Part shown: one piece after another, positions 2,732-25,300 of the stretch
How the letters are laid out: every line of letters begins with the position of its first letter
Position numbering within the stretch: the stretch's first letter is position 1
The notes under the pieces: generated by a model
Database searches by the model: none
Told to the model about the DNA's origin: nothing
What the model saw: only the letters and a program-made list of their open reading frames with translations
Position numbers and translations under genes: made by a program
NCBI GenBank assembly: GCA_031253795.1
Contig: JAIRVR010000062.1
Coordinates: 1-37,984, forward strand
Direction: 5' to 3'
DNA from: Burkholderiaceae bacterium
Lineage (GTDB): Bacteria > Pseudomonadota > Gammaproteobacteria > Burkholderiales > Burkholderiaceae_C
Length of the DNA: 37,984 nucleotides

Positions 2732-2881
2732 GCTTTGGGGCGCGCGACAAAGCCTCCGACGATGTGGCGCCCAGCCGACGGCACTGCCCCCATCGCCGCT
2801 TTTGCTTTACGCTCTATCACCCATCGGCTCTTTCCCAGGCAGGCCCGCACGGTCACCAGCGCCTTCCCAACCTCGCCACCC

Positions 2882-3700
2882 ATGCACCGCGCCTCACCGC
2901 CCCCGGTACCCGCCGATCTGGCCGGCCGCCCCCTGCAATGCGCCATGGTGGCGCGCACCGACAAAGGCTTGCGCCGCGCCAATAACGAGGATGCCGTCAG
3001 CATCCACCCCGGCTCCCAGCCCTGGCCCATGGCCGTGCTGGCCGATGGCATGGGCGGCTACAACGCCGGAGAAGTGGCCAGCGCCATGGCCACCAGCCTG
3101 GTGACGGCCGCCCTGCAAAGCGTGTCCACTTCCAGCACACTGGACAGCCTGCCCCAGGCGCGCCGCCAGCTGCGCCAGGCCCTGGGCGAGGCCCTGGGCC
3201 TGGCCAATGCCGCCATCCTCAACGCGGCCCAGGAAACACCGGGCTGCCAGGGCATGGGCACCACGGTCATCGCGGCCGCCCTGCTGCCGGACCTGCTCAT
3301 GCTGGCCCATCTGGGCGACTCGCGCGCCTACGGCTGGCGCCAGGGCCGGCTGTTGCGCCTGACACGCGACCATACCTGGCTGCAGGAAGAGATCGATGCA
3401 GGCCGCCTGCACAGCGAGGACGCCCGCCAGTCGGGCCTCGGGCATCTGCTGACGCAGGCCCTGGGCGTTGCCCAGGAGATCACGCCGGATTTCAACGAAT
3501 GGCCCCTGCAGTCTGGCGACCGCATCCTGCTGTGCTCCGATGGCCTGACCGACATGCTCGAGGATGAGGAGCTGGCAGCACTGTTCGCGGACACGCCCCC
3601 GCTGCCCGTGCTGCTGACCTCGCTGCTCGCGGCCGCCAACGCGGCAGGCGGCCACGACAATATCAGTGCCGTGCTCATCGAGGTGCAGGCACAGGCCTGA
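2882..3700 (+). CDS. PP2C-family Ser/Thr protein phosphatase
   Basis: From the ATG at 2882 the protein has 272 residues. It carries the PP2C metal-site motifs in order: RRANNEDAV (Glu36/Asp37), LADGMGGYN (Asp55), GTTVIAAAL, HLGDSRAY, LCSDGLTDML and GGHDNISAVLIE. All core metal-ligand positions appear intact, so an active Mn/Mg-dependent phosphatase of the bacterial Stp/PstP type is expected. The start is uncertain: the frame stays open to 2735, ATGs exist at 2882 and 2945, and none has a clear ribosome site. Homology begins just after 2945. The next gene encodes an FHA protein, a phosphothreonine reader, which supports a role in Ser/Thr phosphorylation signalling. No partner kinase lies in this window. 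Confidence 0.92.
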   Translation: MHRASPPPVPADLAGRPLQCAMVARTDKGLRRANNEDAVSIHPGSQPWPMAVLADGMGGYNAGEVASAMATSLVTAALQSVSTSSTLDSLPQARRQLRQALGEALGLANAAILNAAQETPGCQGMGTTVIAAALLPDLLMLAHLGDSRAYGWRQGRLLRLTRDHTWLQEEIDAGRLHSEDARQSGLGHLLTQALGVAQEITPDFNEWPLQSGDRILLCSDGLTDMLEDEELAALFADTPPLPVLLTSLLAAANAAGGHDNISAVLIEVQAQA

Positions 3701-3720
3701 CATCCCCTGACCAGGGGATG
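3701..3720 (+). other. Hairpin directly after the phosphatase stop
   Basis: CATCCCCT (3701-3708) and AGGGGATG (3713-3720) pair perfectly around a GACC loop, starting at the base after the TGA at 3698-3700. No T-run follows, so it is either a weak terminator or an mRNA 3'-end stabiliser between the phosphatase and FHA genes. Confidence 0.5.
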
Positions 3721-3938
3721 GGGCTGCGGTCACAATTGTCAAAATTTGTCTCCAAAAACAACAATCGATGGGATTTCAGCGATAGTCATTGCCCCATCGG
3801 GCCCGGACACGCCGCCAGCTGCGCGCCAGCCCCATAATGTTTGGTAACACCCGCTCCGACCGCTGCCCGACAGCCCCAGGAGCCAGGATGCAGGCCGCCA
3901 CAAGAACGCGGCAAGGGCATAACACAGGAGCTTTGAGC

Positions 3939-4667
3939 ATGCCGACCCTGGTCATCTCCATCGATGGCGCCGTCATCAAGGAAGTGCAGTTGAGCAAGGA
4001 GCGCACGACGCTGGGGCGCCGCCCCTACAACGACATCGTCATCGACAATCTCGCCGTCAGCGGCGAGCATGCCGTGCTCACCATCGCCGAAGACGGCAGC
4101 GTGCTCATCGAAGACCTGCGCAGCACCAACGGCACCTATGTCAACGGCCAGCCCGTGCTGCGCCATGCCCTGTCGCATGGCGATCTGCTGGACATAGGCC
4201 GCTACAAGATCCGCTTCGTGCAGCAGGAAAGAAGCGCCACGCGCACGGCGCTGGCGGCCATCGCCGCGGCCTCGGCCGCCCTGGCTTCCGCGCCGTCCAC
4301 CCGGCCCGCTCGCCTGGACGAGGCCGTGGCCTCCTCGCAGTTCGGCATCACCTCCACGGGCTTCGACCACACCCTGCCACCGTCCATGGCGGGCCTGGCC
4401 ACACGCCATGCCGCCATCCGCATGCTCAACGGCCATGCCGCAGGCCGCGAAGTCCCGCTGGTCAAAATCGTCACCACCCTGGGCAAGCCCGGCGTCGCCG
4501 TGGCCGCCATCACGCAAAAGCCCCATGGTTTCGTGCTGGCCCAGCTCGAAGGCGAGGCTCCCAGCCTTACGCTCAATGGCCAGCAAGTAGGCCCTCACCC
4601 CACGCCGCTGCAACATGGCGACACTGTGGAGCTGGCGGGCACCCAGATGCAATTTTTGCTGGCCTGA
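3939..4667 (+). CDS. FHA domain protein with a second, degenerate FHA module
   Basis: A 242-residue soluble protein. The ATG at 3939 is preceded by AGGAG at 3926-3930; the longer open frame upstream lacks support. Residues 1-90 form a canonical FHA domain: TTLGRRPYND, AVSGEHAVL and DLRSTNGTYVNGQ carry the Arg, Ser-x-x-His and Asn-Gly contacts that bind phosphothreonine. A linker rich in Ala, Ser and Thr follows (about 95-150). The C-terminal 90 residues repeat the fold (IVTTLGKPG, LTLNGQQV, LQHGDTVELAG), but the binding Arg and the S-x-x-H motif are missing, so this half probably does not bind phosphopeptides. It lies 238 bases after the PP2C gene on the same strand, a functional pairing seen in bacterial Ser/Thr phosphosignalling. 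The target is unknown. Confidence 0.85.
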   Translation: MPTLVISIDGAVIKEVQLSKERTTLGRRPYNDIVIDNLAVSGEHAVLTIAEDGSVLIEDLRSTNGTYVNGQPVLRHALSHGDLLDIGRYKIRFVQQERSATRTALAAIAAASAALASAPSTRPARLDEAVASSQFGITSTGFDHTLPPSMAGLATRHAAIRMLNGHAAGREVPLVKIVTTLGKPGVAVAAITQKPHGFVLAQLEGEAPSLTLNGQQVGPHPTPLQHGDTVELAGTQMQFLLA

Positions 4668-4698
4668 GGGATTCCGGCCTGCGCACGACGCCAGGTCT

Positions 4699-4735
4699 TG
4701 ACAAAAATGTCAGCCCAACTGGATCAATTTGTCAG
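4699..4735 (+). promoter_or_regulatory. Possible PilR-type activator sites upstream of pilA
   Basis: Three TGTCA/TGACA elements occur: TGACAAAAATGTCA (4699-4712), itself an inverted pair, and TTTGTCAG (4728-4735). They lie about 75-110 bases upstream of the sigma-54 motif, where enhancer-binding proteins act. Known PilR sites in Pseudomonas contain repeated TGTC cores. The match is by motif and position only. The inverted repeat TGCAAC/GTTGCA at 4742-4763 lies between them and the promoter. Confidence 0.45.
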
Positions 4736-4806
4736 AAAGCATGCAACATTCGTGTAAGTTGCAACAAAAATATACGAATATAGGAGTATTCCGACTTTTT
4801 GCCCGC

Positions 4807-4823
4807 TTGGCATGGCTCTTGCT
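4807..4823 (+). promoter_or_regulatory. Sigma-54 (RpoN) promoter of pilA
   Basis: TTGGCATGGCTCTTGCT has the -24 GG (4809-4810) and -12 GC (4821-4822) separated by exactly ten bases. It matches the TGGCAyr-N4-TTGCw consensus closely. It lies 39 bases before the pilA start. RpoN with PilS/PilR is the established control of type IV major pilin genes, so this is the likely pilA promoter. Confidence 0.85.
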
Positions 4824-4861
4824 GAACTACTTACGCAATTAACCCCTATGAGGAGAAGTTC

Positions 4862-5365
4862 ATGAAGCGTTCCATCCAAAAAGGTTTCACCTTGATCGAA
4901 CTGATGATCGTCGTGGCGATCATCGGTATCCTGGCCGCCGTGGCCCTGCCTGCCTACCAGGACTACACCGTCCGCGCACAGGTCGCCGAAGGCCCGACGC
5001 TGGCTGCCGGCCTGAAGGCTGCCGTGTCCGACTACTACTCTGCCAAGGGTGACTTCCCCACCACCAATGCCCTGGCCATCAACGGCACCACCACTGGCAC
5101 CGCCCTCGCTACCGACAACCAAGGCAGCTATGTGGCCGAAATCGCCGTGGGCAACGGCGGCGCGCTGTCCATCAAGTATGGCAACAAGGTCAACAAGGAC
5201 ATCAAAGACAAGATCCTGACCCTGACCCCCGCCCTGGACCTGGCCAAGAACATCACCTGGATCTGCGGCACGGCATCCGTCCCCTCCGGCGTGACCAAGG
5301 CCTCCGGCGCTTCGGCCACCACCGACATCCCCACCAAGTACCTGCCCACCAGCTGCAAGCTGTAA
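4862..5365 (+). CDS. pilA: Type IV major pilin (prepilin)
   Basis: A 167-residue type IVa prepilin. The eight-residue basic leader ends MKRSIQKG, with cleavage expected before Phe9. The mature N-terminus [20 protein letters not shown] is the canonical hydrophobic helix, with Glu5 for assembly and N-methylation of Phe1. The C-terminal disulfide-bonded loop is bounded by the Cys in TWICGTA and the Cys in PTSCKL; its interior is rich in Ser, Thr, Ala and Gly, a plausible surface for modification. An AGGAGAAG ribosome site lies at 4851-4858. Control is probably by the RpoN promoter at 4807-4823. A strong terminator follows, then a phosphoethanolamine-transferase-like gene in the place of pilin accessory genes. 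It forms twitching/adhesion pili. Confidence 0.95.
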
Positions 5366-5380
5366 TAGCCTAGGACTGCC

Positions 5381-5416
5381 AAAAACACAGATGCTTTGCA
5401 TCTGTGTTTTTTTTTT
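5381..5416 (+). terminator. Strong intrinsic terminator after pilA
   Basis: CACAGATG (5386-5393) pairs with CATCTGTG (5399-5406) around a five-base loop; it is flanked by five A on the left and ten T on the right (5407-5416). It fits a highly expressed pilin gene. The T-run ends only three bases before the ATG of the next gene at 5420, so that gene's ribosome-binding region falls within the terminator. Confidence 0.93.
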
Positions 5417-5419
5417 GCC

Positions 5420-7120
5420 ATGAAGAAGCTTTCTTTCGCGCTGCCTCTGCTGTTTGTCGTCCTGGGTGCCTTTCCCAATGTTTTCAGAATTCACCTGCCG
5501 GGAGATTTGGGGGACCTGCAATACATCGAAAGCATGGCCTACGGCGTCGCCTTCATGCTGCTATGGCTTGCCGTCTGGAAGCGGGTCTGGCTGGCCTATG
5601 CGACGGGAATGGTTTTCTTTTCCTGGTGGCTGCTCGAAATCTACTTGCGCGTCGAATTTCGCAGCGGCCTGAGCAGCGGATTTTTCGGGATGGTCCGTGA
5701 AACCAATCCCCAGGAAATCCTCTCCTTCCTGACCACCTATGCCTTCACGCTAGTGCTGCCATGGCTGGCTTCCATGGCGGTCTTCATCGGTCTGACCTAT
5801 GCCAGCTACAGGAGCGGCATGGCATGGAGGCACCGTTCACGGTACTGGGTCATTACCAGCTTTGTGCTGCTGGGAGCCATGATGCATTTCGCATTTGAAA
5901 TGCAGGAACCCGAAGGTCTCGAGCCATTGCCCGATGCCTTCCAGGTCCGCCAGCCCGGCTTTTGGGTTTCCAAATGGGGCGATACCTACCCCACCAATGC
6001 GATTTTTGCCATACGCCGCAACTACCAGGACCAGGCACTGATCCGGGAATTGAAGTCCAGCATGGCCGGCTACGCCTTCAAGGTCCGACAGACCCAAGCC
6101 GAGGCACCTGACACCGTAGTACTCATCATCGGAGAATCGTCACGGCGGGACCGCTGGTCGCTCTTCGGCTACGAGCGCAATACCACGCCACAGCTGCAAA
6201 AACGCTCCGACCTGGTTCCCATAGGCAATATGGTGACCGTTTCCACGGCCACGCGCAGCTCGGTGCCGGAGATGATCTCCAGGCACCCCATACAGCGCGC
6301 TGACGGCACGCGCCCGCAAAATCCTGAGCCATCCCTGGTCGCTCTATTCAAGCAACTGGGCTACAAGACCTACTGGATTTCCAATCAATCAACTTCGGGC
6401 TTCTTCGACACACCGATTTCGTTTTACGCGTCAGAAGCAAATCAGCAGGCATTCCCCAACCCGGCGAATTTCGCAAGCCGCGGCAATATGGACGAAGCCT
6501 TGCTCAAGCCATTGAACGCCAGTCTGAAAAGCCATGAGAAGAAATTCATCGTTCTTCATACGATGGGCAGCCATTTCAATTATTCCTACCGCTACCCTCA
6601 GAGTTTCGAGTCGTTCCAGCCGGCACTCAAGCCCAACGAGGTCTTCCTGCCATCCGACCCCAGCAAAAAGCAGGAGGCCAATAATGCCTACGACAACAGT
6701 ATTCTCTACACCGACCATGTGCTCAACGCCATCCTCGATAGCCTGGAGCAGCAAGGCAGCAAGGCTGTGGCCATGTATTTATCGGACCATGGCGAGGACA
6801 TTTTCGAGCCCGACTGCGTGAGCATGGGCATCACACGGGTTTCGGAGAAATCCTTTGAAATCCCGGCCTTTCTTTGGAGCAGCAGTGCCTACCGCCAACA
6901 ATGGCCTGCTGAAATCGAGGAGATGCGGCGACTGGCAGCAAGACCCTTGCTTTCCCAGGACACCTTTCCTTTGCTGCTGAATTTTTCCGGCATTACGCTT
7001 GAAGATGCGAACTTCCCGCTGTTCTCGGGCCGCGAGCAGCGCAAGGTCTATGCCCAAGGGGCATGGGTTGATTTTGACAAAGAAAAAGAACGCGATGCCT
7101 GCGTGATCGGCAGACGCTGA
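5420..7120 (+). CDS. Phosphoethanolamine-transferase-like inner-membrane enzyme (sulfatase fold), candidate pilin or surface phosphoform transferase
   Basis: A 566-residue protein with the EptA/CptA architecture. There are five hydrophobic segments between residues 1 and about 160 and a periplasmic alkaline-phosphatase-like domain from about 228. Metal and active-site motifs are VVLIIGESSRRDRW (Glu239), the nucleophile region VSTATRSSVP (Thr278 aligns with Thr285 of MCR-1) and YLSDHGED (Asp456-His457). The two cysteines that bracket the nucleophile in EptA/MCR-1 are replaced by Val274 and Glu284, so it is not a typical lipid A enzyme of that subgroup. The start at 5420 follows the pilA terminator and has no visible ribosome site; a TTG at 5396 in the same frame is the alternative. 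Base composition is visibly less GC-rich than in the flanking genes. Neisseria PptA, of the same fold, modifies pilin; a similar role here is an inference from gene position. Confidence 0.82.
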   Translation: MKKLSFALPLLFVVLGAFPNVFRIHLPGDLGDLQYIESMAYGVAFMLLWLAVWKRVWLAYATGMVFFSWWLLEIYLRVEFRSGLSSGFFGMVRETNPQEILSFLTTYAFTLVLPWLASMAVFIGLTYASYRSGMAWRHRSRYWVITSFVLLGAMMHFAFEMQEPEGLEPLPDAFQVRQPGFWVSKWGDTYPTNAIFAIRRNYQDQALIRELKSSMAGYAFKVRQTQAEAPDTVVLIIGESSRRDRWSLFGYERNTTPQLQKRSDLVPIGNMVTVSTATRSSVPEMISRHPIQRADGTRPQNPEPSLVALFKQLGYKTYWISNQSTSGFFDTPISFYASEANQQAFPNPANFASRGNMDEALLKPLNASLKSHEKKFIVLHTMGSHFNYSYRYPQSFESFQPALKPNEVFLPSDPSKKQEANNAYDNSILYTDHVLNAILDSLEQQGSKAVAMYLSDHGEDIFEPDCVSMGITRVSEKSFEIPAFLWSSSAYRQQWPAEIEEMRRLAARPLLSQDTFPLLLNFSGITLEDANFPLFSGREQRKVYAQGAWVDFDKEKERDACVIGRR

Positions 7121-7127
7121 AAACTCG

Positions 7128-7730
7128 ATGACAAAATCCTTCTACCTGCTTCCGGCCACTTTCTTCTTTTCGGGATTCTGTGCCCTGGTCTATCAGATCT
7201 GCTGGCAGCGTTATCTGGCCGCAGCACTGGGCGTGGATATCGACTCCACCACCATCGTCGTATCGGTATTCATGGTGGGCATAGGCATCGGGGGGGCACT
7301 GGGCGGTTGGCTGGGAGACCGGCTGCCAAGGCATCGCAGCCTGCTGTATGCAGTGTCGGAATTGGCCATCGGTGCCTATGCCTTGTCGAGCCTGGCATTT
7401 TTCGACTGGGCAGTGGCCCCCGGAGGCTGGATGGGCTCTTCCGAGCAATGGCATAACGCCGCAGGGGGCTTCGTCATTTTGTTGATACCCACAGTGATGA
7501 TGGGCATGACCCTGCCCCTGCTGACCCTGATTTTCAACCAGAAGGTGGCCAACATCGGCTATTCCGTGGGCACCCTGTATTTCATCAATACATTCGGCGC
7601 CGCCGCAGGAACCTTGGTCACCACCTTTTTCCTCTTTGACCATCTGCCGCTTTCCCGCATTGTCACGATCATGGCTGCCGTCAATTTCCTGATCGCTGCC
7701 ATCGCCATCTATGTTTTCCGTAAAAAATAG
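7128..7730 (+). CDS. Polytopic membrane protein, N-terminal half of a spermidine-synthase-like membrane protein
   Basis: A 200-residue protein with about five to six hydrophobic segments and no soluble domain. FSGFCALVYQICWQRYL near residues 14-30 is the opening signature of the membrane part of fused transporter/spermidine-synthase-like proteins. It starts seven bases after the previous gene's stop, which suggests an operon. It ends at TAG (7728-7730), and the next start at 7743 is in the same frame with no other stop between, so the two frames would join as one protein of about 700 residues if the TAG were a sense codon. It could be a real separate subunit or the first half of a nonsense-split gene. 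Function is unknown beyond family resemblance. Confidence 0.7.
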   Translation: MTKSFYLLPATFFFSGFCALVYQICWQRYLAAALGVDIDSTTIVVSVFMVGIGIGGALGGWLGDRLPRHRSLLYAVSELAIGAYALSSLAFFDWAVAPGGWMGSSEQWHNAAGGFVILLIPTVMMGMTLPLLTLIFNQKVANIGYSVGTLYFINTFGAAAGTLVTTFFLFDHLPLSRIVTIMAAVNFLIAAIAIYVFRKK

Positions 7731-7742
7731 AGAGTCGCAGCC

Positions 7743-9230
7743 ATGATCCCCCTGATCTCTTTTGTCTGTGGACTGCTGAGTCTCGGAGGAGAAATTCTCT
7801 GGGTCCGTCTCTTTGGCTTTGCCAATGAATCCACACCGCGGGCCTTTGGTTTTGTGCTTTTTTGCTACCTCATAGGCATTGCCCTGGGTGCAGAATATGG
7901 TAAACGCATCTGCAAAACAGCCTCCCACGACCGGCTGCTCAAGCATGTGGCCATGGCCTTTTTCATCTCCTCTTTATCCTGGCTGGCATTTCCGATGGTG
8001 TACGGCATGGTGGCACTGACGCCCTGGCATCTTCCCGTGGCCGTGGTACTGATCATTCTCAGCGCAGCCATCATTGCCTATGTGTTTCCCATCGCCCATC
8101 ACCTGGGCGCCGACTCCGGTGAAAAGCAGGGCAGAAAATTCTCCAAGGTCTATGTATCCAACGTGATGGGGGCAGGACTGGGGCCCCTGATCGTGGGTTG
8201 GTACCTGCTCGACCGATTTTCGCTGCACCAGTGCTTTCTCATCATCTGCATTGCGGCGGCGTGCTTTGCTGGCCTGCTGCTGATGCGCAGCAGGCCTATA
8301 TGGCTGGTACCGATAGCAAGTATCCTGATTGCCACCGTCTGGACTTGGTATGGTGCGGGCCATTGGCTTGTCAAAAATGTGAGCAATCAGTATGCCCACC
8401 TGAAGTACGTCAACGAAAACAAGCACGGCATCATCACCATATTCGAGGGCGGGAAGGAAGGCGACATTGTTTATGGCGGCAATGTCTATGATGGGCGAAC
8501 CAACCTGGACGGGGACCTGAATTCCAATGGCCTGCACCGCGTGCTTGCTGCCCATTTGCTGCAGCCTCATCCCAAAAAGGTATTGATGATCGGCCTGTCC
8601 ATCGGCAGCTGGCTGGCCCTGGCGCGGGAATTCGAGGGCGTCGAGACCCTGGATATCGTCGAGATCAATCCCGGCTACTCGGCCTTGACCCAGCACTATC
8701 CCGCACAGGCCGATGCGCTGAAGGATCCGCGCGTCCATTTGGTGGTGGATGATGCTCGCCGCTGGCTCAGACACCACCCCGAGAAGAAATACGACCTCAT
8801 CATCATGAATAACACTTGGCATTGGCGCGCCTACGGATCATTGCTGCTGTCCCAGGAGTTCTTTACCCAAATAAAGCAGCATATGGAGCCCGATGCCGTC
8901 ATGGCCTTCAACTCCACATATTCCCAAGATGCCTTTTTCACAGCCCAAGCCGTGTTTGACCATGCCTATCGGCTGAGCAACTTCATCTATGCCGCTCACC
9001 AGCCCCTGGAAGAAAAATTCCGGCAACCAGGCAATGTGCAGGTGCTGGATGACTTCCGAATACAAGGCCGCAGAATATTTGCCGAAGGATCGGAGATGCC
9101 CGCCAAAATACTGGACCTGCCGTTCCTGGACTATGTCTCCACCAAGCGGGGGTTCGAGCGCGAGTCCGAGATCATCTCGGACGAGAACATGCTGACCGAG
9201 TTCAAGTACGGCAAGCCCTTGTTCCACTGA
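7743..9230 (+). CDS. Membrane-anchored spermidine-synthase-like methyltransferase-fold protein
   Basis: A 495-residue protein. About six to seven hydrophobic segments occupy residues 1-210, opening with SLGGEILWVRLFG, a second copy of the signature at the start of the upstream frame. A soluble Rossmann domain follows from about 220. The nucleotide-binding stretch VLMIGLSIGSWLALAR is followed by LDIVEINP (the acidic ligand for the adenosine ribose) and VVDDARRWL. The catalytic region, FDVIISDCTDP in spermidine synthase, reads YDLIIMNNTWHWR here, with Asn in place of the catalytic Asp, so true aminopropyl transfer is doubtful. No convincing ribosome site precedes ATG 7743. It probably shares a transcript with the phosphoethanolamine-transferase-like gene. 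The substrate is not deducible. Confidence 0.75.
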   Translation: MIPLISFVCGLLSLGGEILWVRLFGFANESTPRAFGFVLFCYLIGIALGAEYGKRICKTASHDRLLKHVAMAFFISSLSWLAFPMVYGMVALTPWHLPVAVVLIILSAAIIAYVFPIAHHLGADSGEKQGRKFSKVYVSNVMGAGLGPLIVGWYLLDRFSLHQCFLIICIAAACFAGLLLMRSRPIWLVPIASILIATVWTWYGAGHWLVKNVSNQYAHLKYVNENKHGIITIFEGGKEGDIVYGGNVYDGRTNLDGDLNSNGLHRVLAAHLLQPHPKKVLMIGLSIGSWLALAREFEGVETLDIVEINPGYSALTQHYPAQADALKDPRVHLVVDDARRWLRHHPEKKYDLIIMNNTWHWRAYGSLLLSQEFFTQIKQHMEPDAVMAFNSTYSQDAFFTAQAVFDHAYRLSNFIYAAHQPLEEKFRQPGNVQVLDDFRIQGRRIFAEGSEMPAKILDLPFLDYVSTKRGFERESEIISDENMLTEFKYGKPLFH

Positions 9231-9276
9231 CTCCCACGCCAGCCAGTGGCTCAGTCAGAGGCAACATGCCGTCCTG

Positions 9277-9750
9277 TCAGGCCACAAAGCTCCCCGACTT
9301 GCCCCCGTGCTTTTCCAGCACGCGCACACCTTCCATGACCATGTGCTTGTCCACGGCCTTGCACATGTCATAGATGGTGAGCAGGGCCACCTGCACGGCG
9401 GTGAGGGCCTCCATTTCCACGCCCGTGGGGCCCATGGTTTCGACGGTGGCCTGGCAGCGCACGGCGCTGGTGTCGGGCAGCAATTCGAAATCCACGGCCA
9501 CGCGCGTCAGGGCCAGCGGATGGCACAGGGGGATGAGGTCGCTGGTTTTCTTGGCAGCCATGATGCCGGCAATGCGCGCAATGCCCAGCACATCGCCCTT
9601 TTTGGCTGTGCCGCCCTGCACGATGGCCAGGGTTGCGGCCTGCATGGCGATGCGCCCTTCGGCGACGGCGATGCGATGGGTGGCCGGCTTGGCGGCCACA
9701 TCCACCATATGGGCCTGGCCCTGGGTGTCGAAATGGGTGAGGGAAGACAT
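9277..9750 (-). CDS. moaC: Cyclic pyranopterin monophosphate synthase
   Basis: A 157-residue protein of standard MoaC length. It catalyses the second step of molybdenum cofactor synthesis, turning the MoaA product into cyclic pyranopterin monophosphate. Motifs are [15 protein letters not shown] at the N-terminus, [15 protein letters not shown] with the conserved lysines and CHP loop, [26 protein letters not shown] and the C-terminal KHGGKSGSF. The start at 9750 is chosen because AGGAG sits just upstream on this strand (about 9754-9758) and matches the family N-terminus; a longer frame to 9792 adds no homologous residues. It is convergent with the membrane-protein gene ending at 9230 and divergent from the M48 protease gene. 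No other moa genes are in the window. Confidence 0.97.
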
Positions 9751-9886
9751 GGAAACTCCTGCAATGGCACGGGGGCACCGGACATCGGTCACGGACAGGC
9801 CATGAACGTTCGGCGAACCGAGGCATCATAGTGGGGTGTTCCACCGCCCTGCACCAGCCCCGCGGGGCCCGGCCCCCTGCCTGCCC

Positions 9887-11512
9887 ATGCGCCCATCACG
9901 CCTGAAAACACGTACCGCACTCGGCCTGCAGTTGCTCGCGGCCTGCACCGCCATCGCCCTCCACGCCCCGGTCCAGGCCCAGTTGCGCCTGCCCACCCTG
10001 GGGGATGGCGCGGCCACCACGACCAGCGACGAGCGCCGCCTCGGCGACCGCATCATCCGCGAGCTGTACCGGGACCCGGATTACATCGACGACCCCGTGC
10101 TGCAGGAATACGTGGAAGGCATATGGCAGCACCTGGTCGATGCCGCGCGCACGCGCGGCGAGCTGTCGCCCGAGCTGGAAGAGCGCTTCGCCTGGGAAAT
10201 CCTGCTGGGGCGCGACCGCTCGGTCAACGCCTTTGCCCTGCCCGGTGGCTATCTGGGCGTTCACCTGGGGCTGATCGGCGTGGTCAGTTCGCGCGACGAA
10301 CTGGCCTCGGTCCTGGCCCATGAGCTCAGCCACGTCACGCAGCGCCACATCGCCCGCCTCATCGCCCAGCAGAGCAAGCAAACGCCGCTGATGATCGGCT
10401 CCATGATCCTGGGCGCGCTGGCGGCCAGCCGCAGCCCCGATGCGGCCATGGCCATGATGATGGGCGGCCAGGCCCTGGCCGTGCAGAACCAGCTCAATTT
10501 CTCGCGCGACATGGAGCGCGAGGCCGACCGCATGGGCTATGGCCTGATGGCGCCGGCCGGGTTCGCGCCCCAGGGCTTCGTCACCATGTTCGACAAGCTG
10601 CAGCAGGCCAACCGGCTCAACGACAACGGCAGCTGGCCCTATCTGCGCAGCCACCCGCTGACCACGGAGCGCATGGCCGACATGCATTCGCGCATCCCCT
10701 CGGGCACGGCACCCGCGCCGGCCGCCTCGCTGGAGCATGTGATGATGGCGGCGCGCGCGCGCGTGCTGTCGCGCCCCGGCGTGGATGTGCTGCGCCAGTG
10801 GGCCGAGCAGCCACGCTCCACCAGCTTCGGCAGCCAGACCCAGAGCCAGCAGGTGGCCCAGTTGTATGCCGCCACGCTGAGCGCCGTACAGCTGCGCGAT
10901 TGGAAGCCGGCCCGCGAGATGGTCCAGCGCCTGCTGGACGCCACGCCCCAGAATCCCGATGCCCAGCGGCAGGCGCGCCTGCTGCAGGCCGAGCTGGAAA
11001 TGGCGGCCGGCCAGCCTGCTGCCGCCCTGCAGGTGCTTCCCGCCCTGGGCTCGGCACCCCTGCCCCGGCCCACACCGACCAGCGAACAGCGGGCCGCGGA
11101 GAGCGGCAATGCCGCAGGACCCAGCCTGGCCACCGTCAACGTGGTCGAAAGCCGCGCCGTGCGCCGCCCCGAGCTGCTGATGCGCACCCAGGCCCTGTTG
11201 CGCGAACGCGATGCCGCCAGCATGTCGGGTCCGCTGCAGACCTGGGTGACGGATCACGCGCGCGACGCCACGGCCTGGCAGCTGCTGGCCCAGGTCTGGC
11301 ATGCCCAGGGCCAGGAGCTGCGGGCGCTGCGCGCCGAGGCCGAGGCCCAGGTGGCGCACTACGACTACCCTGCGGCCGTGGACCGCTTCAAGGCCGCCCA
11401 GGAGATGGCACGCAAGGGCGGCCCCAAGGTGGACTACATCGAGGCGTCCATCGTGGACACGCGGCTGCGCTCCGTGGAAGAGCTGCTAAGGGAACAGGCG
11501 CGCGAGAAGTGA
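9887..11512 (+). CDS. Periplasmic M48-family metalloprotease with C-terminal repeats, BepA (YfgC)-like
   Basis: From the ATG at 9887 the protein has 541 residues. It begins with a signal peptide (basic MRPSRLKTR, hydrophobic core, and VQAQ as probable cleavage region). The zinc site is HELSH (His145, Glu146, His149), with the third ligand Glu in SRDMEREADRMGYG. The C-terminal half (about 300-541) is Ala/Leu-rich and helical with TPR-like character. BepA proteins work in the periplasm on assembly or degradation of beta-barrel outer-membrane proteins such as LptD; E. coli BepA has 487 residues. The start at 9887 is preferred over 9836 because the signal peptide begins there. Its last 27 bases overlap the end of the convergent gene at 11486-11833. 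Confidence 0.9.
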   Translation: MRPSRLKTRTALGLQLLAACTAIALHAPVQAQLRLPTLGDGAATTTSDERRLGDRIIRELYRDPDYIDDPVLQEYVEGIWQHLVDAARTRGELSPELEERFAWEILLGRDRSVNAFALPGGYLGVHLGLIGVVSSRDELASVLAHELSHVTQRHIARLIAQQSKQTPLMIGSMILGALAASRSPDAAMAMMMGGQALAVQNQLNFSRDMEREADRMGYGLMAPAGFAPQGFVTMFDKLQQANRLNDNGSWPYLRSHPLTTERMADMHSRIPSGTAPAPAASLEHVMMAARARVLSRPGVDVLRQWAEQPRSTSFGSQTQSQQVAQLYAATLSAVQLRDWKPAREMVQRLLDATPQNPDAQRQARLLQAELEMAAGQPAAALQVLPALGSAPLPRPTPTSEQRAAESGNAAGPSLATVNVVESRAVRRPELLMRTQALLRERDAASMSGPLQTWVTDHARDATAWQLLAQVWHAQGQELRALRAEAEAQVAHYDYPAAVDRFKAAQEMARKGGPKVDYIEASIVDTRLRSVEELLREQAREK

Positions 11513-22318: not shown

Positions 22319-25300
22319 ATGATCGAACCGAAACCGCACCCCACACGCCCGACCCATTGGATGGCCGGCCTTGCGCGGTGGACGCTGGGACTGGTCCTCG
22401 CCTTCTGGCTGGCCGTCGCCACCGTGTGGGGGGTGCTCCATGGGTGGATTGTGCCGCGAATCGGAGAATGGCGTCCCCAGCTGGAATCCCTGGCCTCACG
22501 CACCCTGGGACTTCCCGTTCGCATAGGCAGCATCGAGGCGCACAGCGAAGGGCTGATCCCCCGTTTCGAACTTGGCGACGTGGTCCTGCAAGACCCTGAC
22601 AGCGGCACGGACGCCCTGCGCCTGCCCCATGTCACCGTGGCGGTTTCGGCACGCTCGCTGATGCGCCTGGGCGTGGAGCAGATCTACATCGACCGGCCCG
22701 AGCTGGTGGTCCGGCGTGCGGCCGATGGCCGCATCTTCGTCGCGGGCATTGCCATCAGCCCTTCGGCGGGCCAGGACAACGAGGCCGCCGACTGGCTTTT
22801 TTCCCAGACCGAACTGGCGCTGCGCGGCGGCAGCCTGCTGTGGATCGACGAGATGCGCCAGGCGCCGCCCCTGGCCCTCAGCGACGTGGACGTGGTGCTG
22901 CGCAACCGGGGCTGGAGCCATGGCATGCGCCTGGACGCCACGCCGCCCCAGGGCTGGGGCGGGCGCTTCACGCTGGCCGGCCAGTTCCGCGAACCGCTGC
23001 TTTCCACCCATGAGGGCGACTGGCAGCGCTGGAGCGGCAAGGCCTACGCACTGTTCGGCGACATCGATCTGTCCCAGCTGGGCCGCTATGTCGATACCGG
23101 AGCGCTGCGGCTGCAGCAAGGCCATGGCGCCCTGCGTGCCTGGATGGACCTGCGCCAGGGCCAGCCACTGGGTGCCACGGCCGATCTGGCCGTGAAGGCG
23201 TTGCAGCTGCAGTGGCGCGACGACCTGCAACCGCTGCAGCTGCAGGCCGTTCAGGGGCGGCTGAGCCTGCAGCGCCAGGAAGACTATCGCTTCACTGCCC
23301 AGGGGCTGGAGTTTTCCACGGGCGACGGTCTGCACTGGCCGGCCGGCAATCTGCGCCTGCGCTATGCGCCCACGGGGGCCAGCCCGCAGGGCGCACTCGG
23401 CGAACAGGGCGAGCTGCAGGCCGATGCCGTGGACCTGGCCATCCTGGCCCAGTTGCTGCAGCGCCTGCCCCTGCCCGAATCCCTGCAGCAACACATCGCC
23501 CAGCTCCAGCCCTCGGGCCGGCTGCGCGACCTGCAGTGGAGCTGGCGCGGCCCTCTCGAAAACCTGCGCCAGTACAAGGCCAGCGGCCAGCTGCAGCAGC
23601 TGTCGCTGGCCGGCATCCCCTCGGAACAAGGCCCCACCCACCCAGGCATGCCCGGTGTGCAGGGCCTGAACGCGCAGTTCTCGCTGGACCAGGACGGCGG
23701 CCAGGCCCAGCTGGAAATGGACGGCACGCACCAGGGCGCCTTCCTGTCCTTCCCTGGCGTCTTCGAAGAACCCGATATCGCGCTGCAGCGCCTGCAGGCC
23801 AGCCTGCGCTGGCAATTGCGTGGCCAGGCCATCAGCGTGCAGGTTCCCAGCCTGCGCTTTGCCAACGGCGACACCGAGGGCGAGGCACGTGCGCAATGGC
23901 ATACGGGCGATGGCAGCGCGAAGCAGCCGCGCTTTCCGGGCGTGCTCGACCTGCAGGGCCAGTTGCGCGACGCCGACGGCACCAGCGTGCACCGCTATCT
24001 GCCGCTGGAGATTCCGGCCGACGCGCGCCATTACGTGCGCGACGCCATCAAGGCAGGGCGCGCCAGCACCGTGGCCTTCAAGGTGCGCGGCGAGCTGGAC
24101 CATGTGCCCTTCGACAAACCTGGCCAGGGCGAATTCCATATCGCGGCCAAGCTCCACGATGTGCACTACGACTACGTTCCCGCCTCCCTGCTCACGCATG
24201 GCGAGGCCCCCTGGCCCGCACTGACCCAGCTGTCGGGCGAGCTGGTCTTCGACAGATCCTCCATGGCCGTGCGCAATGCGCGCGGGCAGTTCGCCGGCTA
24301 TGGCCAGCTGCAGATGCGCGACATCCAGGCCAGCATCGCCGACCTGTCCCACACCGAGGTGGCCGTCAGCGCCAAGGGCCAGGGCCCGCTGGCCGACATG
24401 CTGGGCGTGGTCCAGACCTCGGCACTGTCGGCTCTGACCGAGCATGTGCTGGACACCAGCCAGGCCACGGGACCAGCCCAGCTGGCCCTGCAACTGCAAT
24501 TGCCCATCAACCACCTGGACCGCAGCAAGGTCGGCGGCCAGGTCACGCTGTCGGGCAATTCCCTGCAGCTCGACGCCGACACGCCCCACCTGAGCCAGCT
24601 GCGCGGCGCGGTCAAGTTCTCCGAAACCGGCTTCAGCCTGGTCGGCCTGCAGGGCCGGGCCCTGGGCGGCGAACTCAAGGCCGAGGGAGGCATGCAGGCG
24701 CCCCCGCACGGGACGGCCACGCCGGCCTCCGAATCGCCGGTGCGGATCCGCATCCAGGGCACGGCCAGCGCCCAGGGTCTGCGCGACGCCAGGGAGCTGG
24801 GCTGGGTTGCCGATCTGGCCCGCCATGCCGAAGGCCAGTCGCCCTACAGCCTGCAGCTCAAGGTCCGGCGCGGCAAGCCCGAAATCCAGGTGCAGACCAG
24901 CCTGCAAGGCATGCGCATCCAGCTGCCCGCGCCCCTGGGCAAGCCGGCCGACACCAGCCTGGCGCTGAACGTCAGCCATCAGCTGGCTGCGGCCTCCTTT
25001 GCCGCGGCCGATGCCCCGCTCCAGGACCAGATCAGCGTGCGGCTCGGCGACATGGCGTCCGTGGTCTACGAACGCGACATCAGCGACCCCCGGCAGGCGC
25101 GCGTCCTGCGCGGAAGCATTGCCCTGGGCCAGGAGGCGGCGGCCACGACCCATTTGCCGGACCGCGGCGTGCACGCGCGCATGCAGCTGCAGGAATTCAG
25201 CATCGACGACTGGCTGGCCCTGCTGCCGCGCAGCCCCGCTGCGACCTCCACGGCAACGGCCGACGGTGCCCAGGCCATTGACGAGGTCACGCGCACCTAC

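Follow-up and report, generated by a model that had tools for sequence, protein, structure and literature searches.

A type IV pilin gene that is followed on the same strand by genes for a phosphoethanolamine-transferase-like enzyme and a two-part membrane protein with a spermidine-synthase-like domain raises the question of what these products might do to the pilin. The arrangement occurs in a Burkholderiaceae bacterium (GenBank assembly GCA_031253795.1, contig JAIRVR010000062.1, positions 1 to 37,984). The whole stretch of 37,984 nucleotides that was analysed is termed the window, and coordinates refer to it throughout. The pilin gene and the three genes behind it, read from the list of plus-strand open reading frames, are as follows (MFS, major facilitator superfamily; TM, transmembrane segment; aa, amino acids).

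4862..5365, plus strand: pilA, a type IV pilin (Pfam Pilin 79.1 bits, N_methyl 38.8 bits)
5420..7120, plus strand: Ept, a membrane phosphoethanolamine-transferase-like enzyme with about 5 TM and a sulfatase-fold domain
7128..7730, plus strand: MFS, a 6-TM half of 200 aa, the first part of the MFS/SpdS pair
7743..9230, plus strand: SpdS, 495 aa, a 7-TM part and a C-terminal domain of spermidine-synthase/methyltransferase fold

The three genes very probably form a pilin-linked modification cassette, and it is likely that the cassette transfers a phospho-form; that MFS/SpdS also N-methylates this group is a proposal for which the case is evenly balanced. The observations are the gene order, an exchangeable slot at pilA, linkage to pilin genes and to the PptA clade of transferases, loss of aminopropyltransferase residues from SpdS, and failure to find SpeD, the source of decarboxylated S-adenosylmethionine (SAM), in half of the host genomes tested. 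From these we infer that pilin is the substrate, that a phospho-form is added and, most conditionally, that it is N-methylated from SAM.

The initial annotation described three frames directly behind pilA, separated by 7 and 12 bases, in a block poorer in guanine plus cytosine (GC) than its flanks, and all of this was borne out. Its two counts are exact (30 of 60 bases at 7141-7200 and 48 of 60 at 22921-22980). The block at 5366-9276 has 55.4% GC, as against 65.0% (2735-5365) and 69.5% (9277-11512) beside it and 67.8% in the remainder (11513-37984). The set has the placement of an accessory cassette, i.e. directly behind the pilin gene and in the same direction.

An earlier contig scan, which preceded a 9-row alignment, found no relative. 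The scan with that alignment did, and the best 80 of 138 loci were kept; because only these were kept, the sample leans toward the query and has several near-duplicates. Close relatives such as three Xanthomonas and three Aggregatibacter actinomycetemcomitans loci also mean that the 80 rows are not independent cases. MFS is adjacent to SpdS, directly upstream of it, in 77 of the 80 loci, Ept is adjacent in 36, a pilin gene lies within 4.5 kb in 22, and Ept and pilin are both present in 21. Pilin, Ept, MFS and SpdS are all together in 21 loci, and in 17 of these they have the window's order and direction; four full sets (L088, L091, L121 and L127) are arranged differently. Where at least 4.5 kb of upstream sequence was available (62 loci), a pilin gene was found in 18, Ept in 30 and both in 17. 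Within 4.5 kb of SpdS there are 26 pilin motifs in 620,992 bases, versus one in 606,795 bases further out. A SpdS tree built from 79 of 86 sequences, with linkage scored only at loci that no contig end truncates, requires a minimum of 11 changes of the pilin-linked state, and thus pilin linkage recurs in many lineages.

Hosts of the 21 full sets include Polaromonas, Azonexus, Hydrogenophilus, Tepidimonas, Luteimonas, Pseudoxanthomonas, Xanthomonas, Acinetobacter towneri, Comamonas granuli and Undibacterium, and this type of cassette is found in Comamonadaceae, Azonexaceae, Rhodocyclaceae, Hydrogenophilaceae, Lysobacteraceae and Acinetobacter. The prevalence, own genome included, is 14 of 399 genomes of the family (E 1e-20) and three of 369 genomes of the class (E 1e-60). 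The expectation that relatives would keep these frames beside pilA holds in part. It fails for SpdS at large, with only 22 of 80 loci near a pilin gene, and it stands for the loci with an adjacent Ept, 21 of 36 of which are near one. MFS/SpdS pairs without Ept are mostly away from pilins. Two of the genes appear in two pieces, SpdS of Comamonas granuli (L115 9986-11524) and Ept of Azonexus hydrophilus (L064 7615-9332); a stop, a frame change or a sequencing error may account for each.

In the window's genus, the place behind pilA can be followed from genome to genome by means of its two borders.

3789..4667, plus strand: gene of an FHA-domain protein, left border of the pilA slot (Pfam FHA 87.7 bits), with a true start probably downstream of 3789
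9277..9792, minus strand: moaC, right border of the slot (Pfam MoaC 196.4 bits)

The FHA gene was matched in 36 of 53 genus genomes, the own genome included, and 34 regions were read, the window itself and one short contig being left out. A pilin gene lies behind the FHA gene in all 34, and a moaC homologue is in the same place in 32. In these 32 slots with both borders, the pilA-moaC interval varies from 0.1 to 11.6 kb, contains differing genes, and in every case is lower in GC than its 3-kb right flank. TfpZ-like genes are present in 15 of the 32 (two at only 23-25% identity), and ten slot proteins that were scanned include six Wzy_C-type ligases and one UbiA. The 34 other regions gave no match to Ept, MFS or SpdS at E 1e-4. 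SpdS was matched in 36 of the 53 genus genomes, and all matches except the own one have only 23-28% identity (E 3.3e-9 or weaker). In this genus, then, pilin accessory genes are swapped in the pilA-moaC interval, an exchangeable slot at pilA. The window's set was gained or kept at a place that in relatives contains other pilin accessory genes.

Two genomes of the same family (G198 and G070) carry the cassette at the same chromosomal place. The order is PP2C, FHA, pilA, a TfpZ-like gene, a second sulfatase gene in G070, then Ept, MFS, SpdS, moaC and an M48 gene. The Pseudomonas-type accessory cassettes (TfpO, TfpW and TfpX/Y/Z) are likewise directly behind pilA, low in GC and exchanged at one slot, a likeness of description in which only TfpZ was compared by sequence (NCBIfam model). 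The TfpZ-like gene between pilA and the cassette in G198 and G070 adds to it. The difference is that the window has no glycosyl ligase or TfpZ, but a phospho-form transferase with MFS/SpdS instead. The earlier suggestion of a pilin-linked modification set distinct from the Tfp accessory sets already known is thus well supported by the gene order in multiple lineages and by the survey of the swap site.

Other contents of the slot deserve mention. Two slots (L168 2527-8534 and L198 3898-11302) have UbiA-like, dehydrogenase/oxidase-like and GtrA-like genes, of which only UbiA was tested (in L168), and these presumably resemble the TfpW arabinose system of Pseudomonas group IV pilins. In L179, L188 and L189, two genes lie behind pilA. 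One encodes a protein of 388 aa, to which Pfam gives a beta-lactamase fold in L179, the only one of the three that was scanned, and the other a small sulfatase-fold membrane protein, which resembles the second sulfatase of G070 (L052 5214-6614); the pair is possibly a further pilin accessory type. L190, L191 and L192 have a second pilin gene after the TfpZ-like gene.

The sulfatase-fold transferase seen behind pilA in the initial annotation is supported by a Pfam Sulfatase score of 164.3 bits. The best NCBIfam model is the CptA-type phosphoethanolamine transferase PRK10649, and the closest solved structure is EptC 5zzu (E 7.5e-39). The model score of 218.9 bits is below the cut-off of 404, which leaves Ept outside the CptA/EptC subfamily, and E. 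coli EptC is on a separate long branch. The residues that in EptA/MCR structures have catalytic or metal-binding roles are present in the window's Ept, as expected of a member of the EptA/EptC/PptA superfamily; every one of the 39 aligned Epts has E239, H380, H385, D456 and H457, and 38 have T278. PptA of pathogenic Neisseria shares both superfamily and catalytic residues with the window's Ept, and its substrate is type IV pilin (PMC4010543). The Ept tree, made like the SpdS tree by a quick method with support only from the Shimodaira-Hasegawa-like approximate likelihood ratio test (SH-aLRT), places the window's Ept outside the clade of EptA rows.

The two-part membrane protein proposed earlier is also recovered by family models. 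SpdS matches Pfam Spermine_synth at 36.9 bits (cut-off 22.9). The model of fused MFS/spermidine synthases, NF037959 (MFS_SpdSyn, cut-off 40), is matched by MFS at 49.4 bits and by SpdS at 40.2 bits, each over its own part, and the pair belongs to this family, but it is split in two genes. With Pfam MFS_1, the 200-aa protein reaches 22.5 bits, below the cut-off of 33.4. Hydropathy, with TM taken as peaks of mean hydropathy of at least 1.5 and weaker peaks in both proteins judged non-TM, gives 6 TM for MFS and 7 TM plus the C-terminal domain for SpdS. The membrane parts together make a 12-TM MFS-like unit with one extra TM. Because MFS and SpdS are one fused frame in five of 74 relatives with one clear copy of each, the two most likely function as one unit. 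Hydropathy and charge predict a periplasmic SpdS domain, which would follow 7 TM from an N-terminus inside the cell.

SpdS has a fold relation to E. coli SpeE (hhalign probability 98.3), but both diagnostic aspartates are replaced. The GGGDG motif of SpeE aligns with GLSIG in SpdS, DCTDP with NNTWH, and the YHE stretch of SpeE aligns to a gap. In the family, Asp at the GGGDG position is found in none of 86 sequences; at the DxxDP position it is found in none of the 85 that reach it, all 85 having Asn (a few duplicates are included in both counts). Four residues (E307, D337, N356 and R362) do not vary among 81 aligned homologues, and two more (T358 and W361) hardly do.

How might such a set act? 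By the mechanism of the EptA/PptA superfamily, Ept would take phosphoethanolamine from phosphatidylethanolamine and transfer it to pilin in the periplasm. MFS/SpdS would N-methylate the phosphoethanolamine to the mono- or dimethyl form or to phosphocholine, while it is still part of the lipid or once it has reached the pilin. If the SpdS domain is outside, it could act on the modified pilin, with the MFS part carrying SAM through the membrane; should the predicted topology be wrong, the lipid could be methylated in the inner leaflet and then flipped, which would be a simpler path. For the entire scheme, an exchanged pilin accessory cassette in which Ept adds phosphoethanolamine and MFS/SpdS N-methylates it, the chances for and against appear equal. 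A more specific form is possible, yet rather improbable, namely a self-contained periplasmic methylation machine whose MFS part carries SAM or a methyl group and whose SpdS domain methylates pilin-bound phosphoethanolamine. If true, it would supply the methyltransferase for gonococcal and meningococcal pilin phosphocholine, and would answer the objection about SAM reaching the periplasm (PMC4010543).

That objection comes from work on Neisseria. Gonococcal PilE carries phosphoethanolamine, mono- and dimethyl-phosphoethanolamine and phosphocholine, and the methylated forms are not seen without pptA (PMC4010543). In pathogenic Neisseria the pilin phosphocholine is added by PptA, with the methyl source not established (PMC4010543, PMC10434233); a methyltransferase pathway has been implicated for PilE, none being readily identifiable (PMC4010543). 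PptA and PilE in Pseudomonas aeruginosa, which makes phosphatidylcholine, gave phosphoethanolamine but not phosphocholine (PMC4010543), and a dedicated factor may therefore be missing there. Antibody and mutant evidence places phosphocholine (ChoP) on Flp1 of A. actinomycetemcomitans, with 27 of 94 strains positive (PMC6182317). A PmtA homologue was not detected in this species (PMC10434233). The same paper leaves room for further, novel ChoP pathways. No MFS/SpdS partner is named in the excerpts consulted on the published PptA system, and a count of the word spermidine in the main texts of PMC4010543 and PMC10434233 gave 0 for each. Among the matches listed from the open-licence literature, none tied a spermidine-synthase-like protein to pilin or phosphocholine.

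Gene order and phylogeny bring these organisms together with the window. In A. actinomycetemcomitans the genes for Ept, MFS and SpdS stand in a single row; the N. gonorrhoeae MFS/SpdS pair adjoins what we take to be nuo genes. The gonococcal gene termed PptA here is presumed to be so because two Mur ligase genes flank it, and it is not beside a pilin gene. Its sister in the tree (SH-aLRT 99) is an Ept encoded ahead of a fused MFS-SpdS gene in a metagenome-assembled Cardiobacteriaceae genome, and the PptA clade (10 rows, SH-aLRT 100) also contains the Aggregatibacter and Pasteurella Epts that directly precede MFS/SpdS. In the SpdS tree the gonococcal protein falls in a group of 12 rows (SH-aLRT 100) together with SpdS of Pasteurellaceae, of the Cardiobacteriaceae genome and of Acinetobacter towneri, and the A. 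towneri SpdS lies in a full pilin cassette.

SpdS was found in two of 46 Neisseria genomes, and PptA of more than 90% identity in the same two; as these are close kin, the co-occurrence counts as one evolutionary event rather than as a statistic. A third Neisseria genome lacks SpdS but encodes a PptA-like protein of 36% identity. All ten SpdS-bearing genomes of Neisseria and Pasteurellaceae that were searched encode a PptA-like protein (E 2.8e-75 or better), including Haemophilus ducreyi, Mesocricetibacter and Bisgaardia, which have no adjacent Ept and a PptA-like gene elsewhere. Five other SpdS genomes have a PptA-like match only at 3.6e-21 or weaker. In the second Neisseria genome (G495:C1:115158-116800), which may be N. 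meningitidis, pptA is split into two pieces that lie in different frames, and this fits the phase variation reported for the gene. An anchoring of the gonococcal pair at pilE was also considered and dropped: in L048 the pair adjoins genes that we take to be silent pilin copies and lpxC, but in G447 it adjoins uvrD, and the neighbourhood is therefore not a conserved one.

MFS/SpdS together with Ept is put forward as a candidate for the phosphocholine step of pathogenic Neisseria pilin, with MFS/SpdS as a concrete candidate for the methyl source. The entire set lies in one row beside a pilin gene in environmental bacteria, where the question can be tested. The set also adds a type of pilin accessory cassette, and it could alter pilus surface charge and hence adhesion, phage binding and recognition.

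Alternative explanations have to be weighed. The initial annotation had thought of an amine-bearing group, and MFS/SpdS might make or export a polyamine or an aminopropyl group for the pilin or cell surface. The Spermine_synth match and the SpeE alignment would fit this, but the absence of both diagnostic Asp residues from every homologue read and the gap at YHE do not. Of 30 SpdS genomes, 15 have SpeD (PF02675), as do eight of 14 control genomes. The test included 13 genomes with the full cassette, and 11 of them have SpeD, which favours polyamine chemistry and is a point against N-methylation. SpeD was not found in the other 15 of the 30, although drafts may hide a gene; these are N. gonorrhoeae, nine Pasteurellaceae, two Legionella, Castellaniella, and, both with the full cassette, Acinetobacter towneri and Polaromonas sp. 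OV174, whose SpdS is the nearest to that of the window (50%) among the best 80 of 138 relatives. Because both Asp positions are lost family-wide and SpeD was not found in half of the hosts, SpdS is probably not a spermidine synthase, judging from these residues and genomes. Polyamine synthesis by SpdS was rejected as the leading idea on the lost Asp positions, the SpeE alignment and the SpeD survey; a polyamine or aminopropyl role in general is improbable, and the suggestion of an amine-bearing group made in this way is unsupported.

It is also improbable, to about the same degree, that the genes constitute a system for phosphoethanolamine on lipid A or another surface molecule that merely happens to be beside pilA. 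Ept is homologous to lipid A transferases, and the own genome has a second, EptA-like gene; but pilin linkage is recurrent across lineages, the slot otherwise holds pilin accessory genes, and Ept does not group with the EptA rows. Somewhat less improbable, and still doubtful, is a cassette for phosphoethanolamine alone, where MFS/SpdS would deliver or flip the phosphatidylethanolamine donor or act as a scaffold, the domain would be non-enzymatic, and methylation would come from PmtA-like proteins elsewhere. The loss of aminopropyltransferase residues and the full 12-TM MFS-like unit accord with such a role, and other Ept families (EptA/MCR) work without a partner of this kind. Neisseria is reported to have PmtA-like proteins (30-32% identity) and Pcs-like proteins, also of low identity (PMC10434233), rival methyl sources that count against methylation by MFS/SpdS as well. 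On the other side, the invariant and nearly invariant residues of SpdS would be unusual for a dead domain, and loss of the PmtA-like NMB1270 left ChoP unaltered (PMC10434233).

It should be pointed out that several further observations weigh against an N-methylating pilin cassette. SAM binding and methyl transfer are putative activities of SpdS, for which the sequence shows only the invariant E307 and D337, and a spermidine synthase fold by itself cannot separate SAM from other ligands. The SpdS domain is predicted to be in the periplasm, where SAM is not expected (PMC4010543). There is no pilin gene at 58 of the 80 SpdS loci and no Ept nearby at 44, some of these loci being cut by contig ends. 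The Ept of the window falls not in the PptA clade but in a separate one of 9 rows (SH-aLRT 99), and the PptA clade includes two Epts unlinked to SpdS, one in A. actinomycetemcomitans and one in a Neisseria without SpdS. NMB0239 and NMB0240 are presumably the MFS/SpdS pair. N. lactamica reportedly hybridised to NMB0239/NMB0240 probes and is without dca/pptA (PMC1538595). Legionella massiliensis and L. maceachernii have MFS/SpdS and gave no PptA-like match at E 1e-10; their two pairs (L072 and L073) have no adjacent Ept and no pilin nearby, and MFS/SpdS thus has another context in these two species. Cassette pilins are not clearly richer in Ser/Thr than others (0.232 versus 0.208, p = 0.07), and a common Ser/Thr-rich signature was dropped as not significant.

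Two further signals were located around pilA.

4808..4823, plus strand: sigma-54-type promoter-like site of pilA, a perfect match to TGGCAYRNNNNTTGCW
5381..5411, plus strand: terminator-like hairpin between pilA and Ept, 14 pairs and a T run

TGGCAYRNNNNTTGCW is what we take to be the sigma-54-type consensus. One perfect site was found upstream of pilA versus 0.11 expected, and 10 of 100 shuffled sequences also give one. Terminator-like sites in the region number seven against 4.9 expected, and the hairpin at 5381-5411 is the longest (fold z = -3.8). The Ept frame is listed from a TTG at 5396, with the first ATG at 5420. This ATG comes almost at once after the T run of the hairpin, and hence no ribosome binding site is evident before it (5411-5422). 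The cassette is likely to be expressed by read-through from pilA, or weakly.

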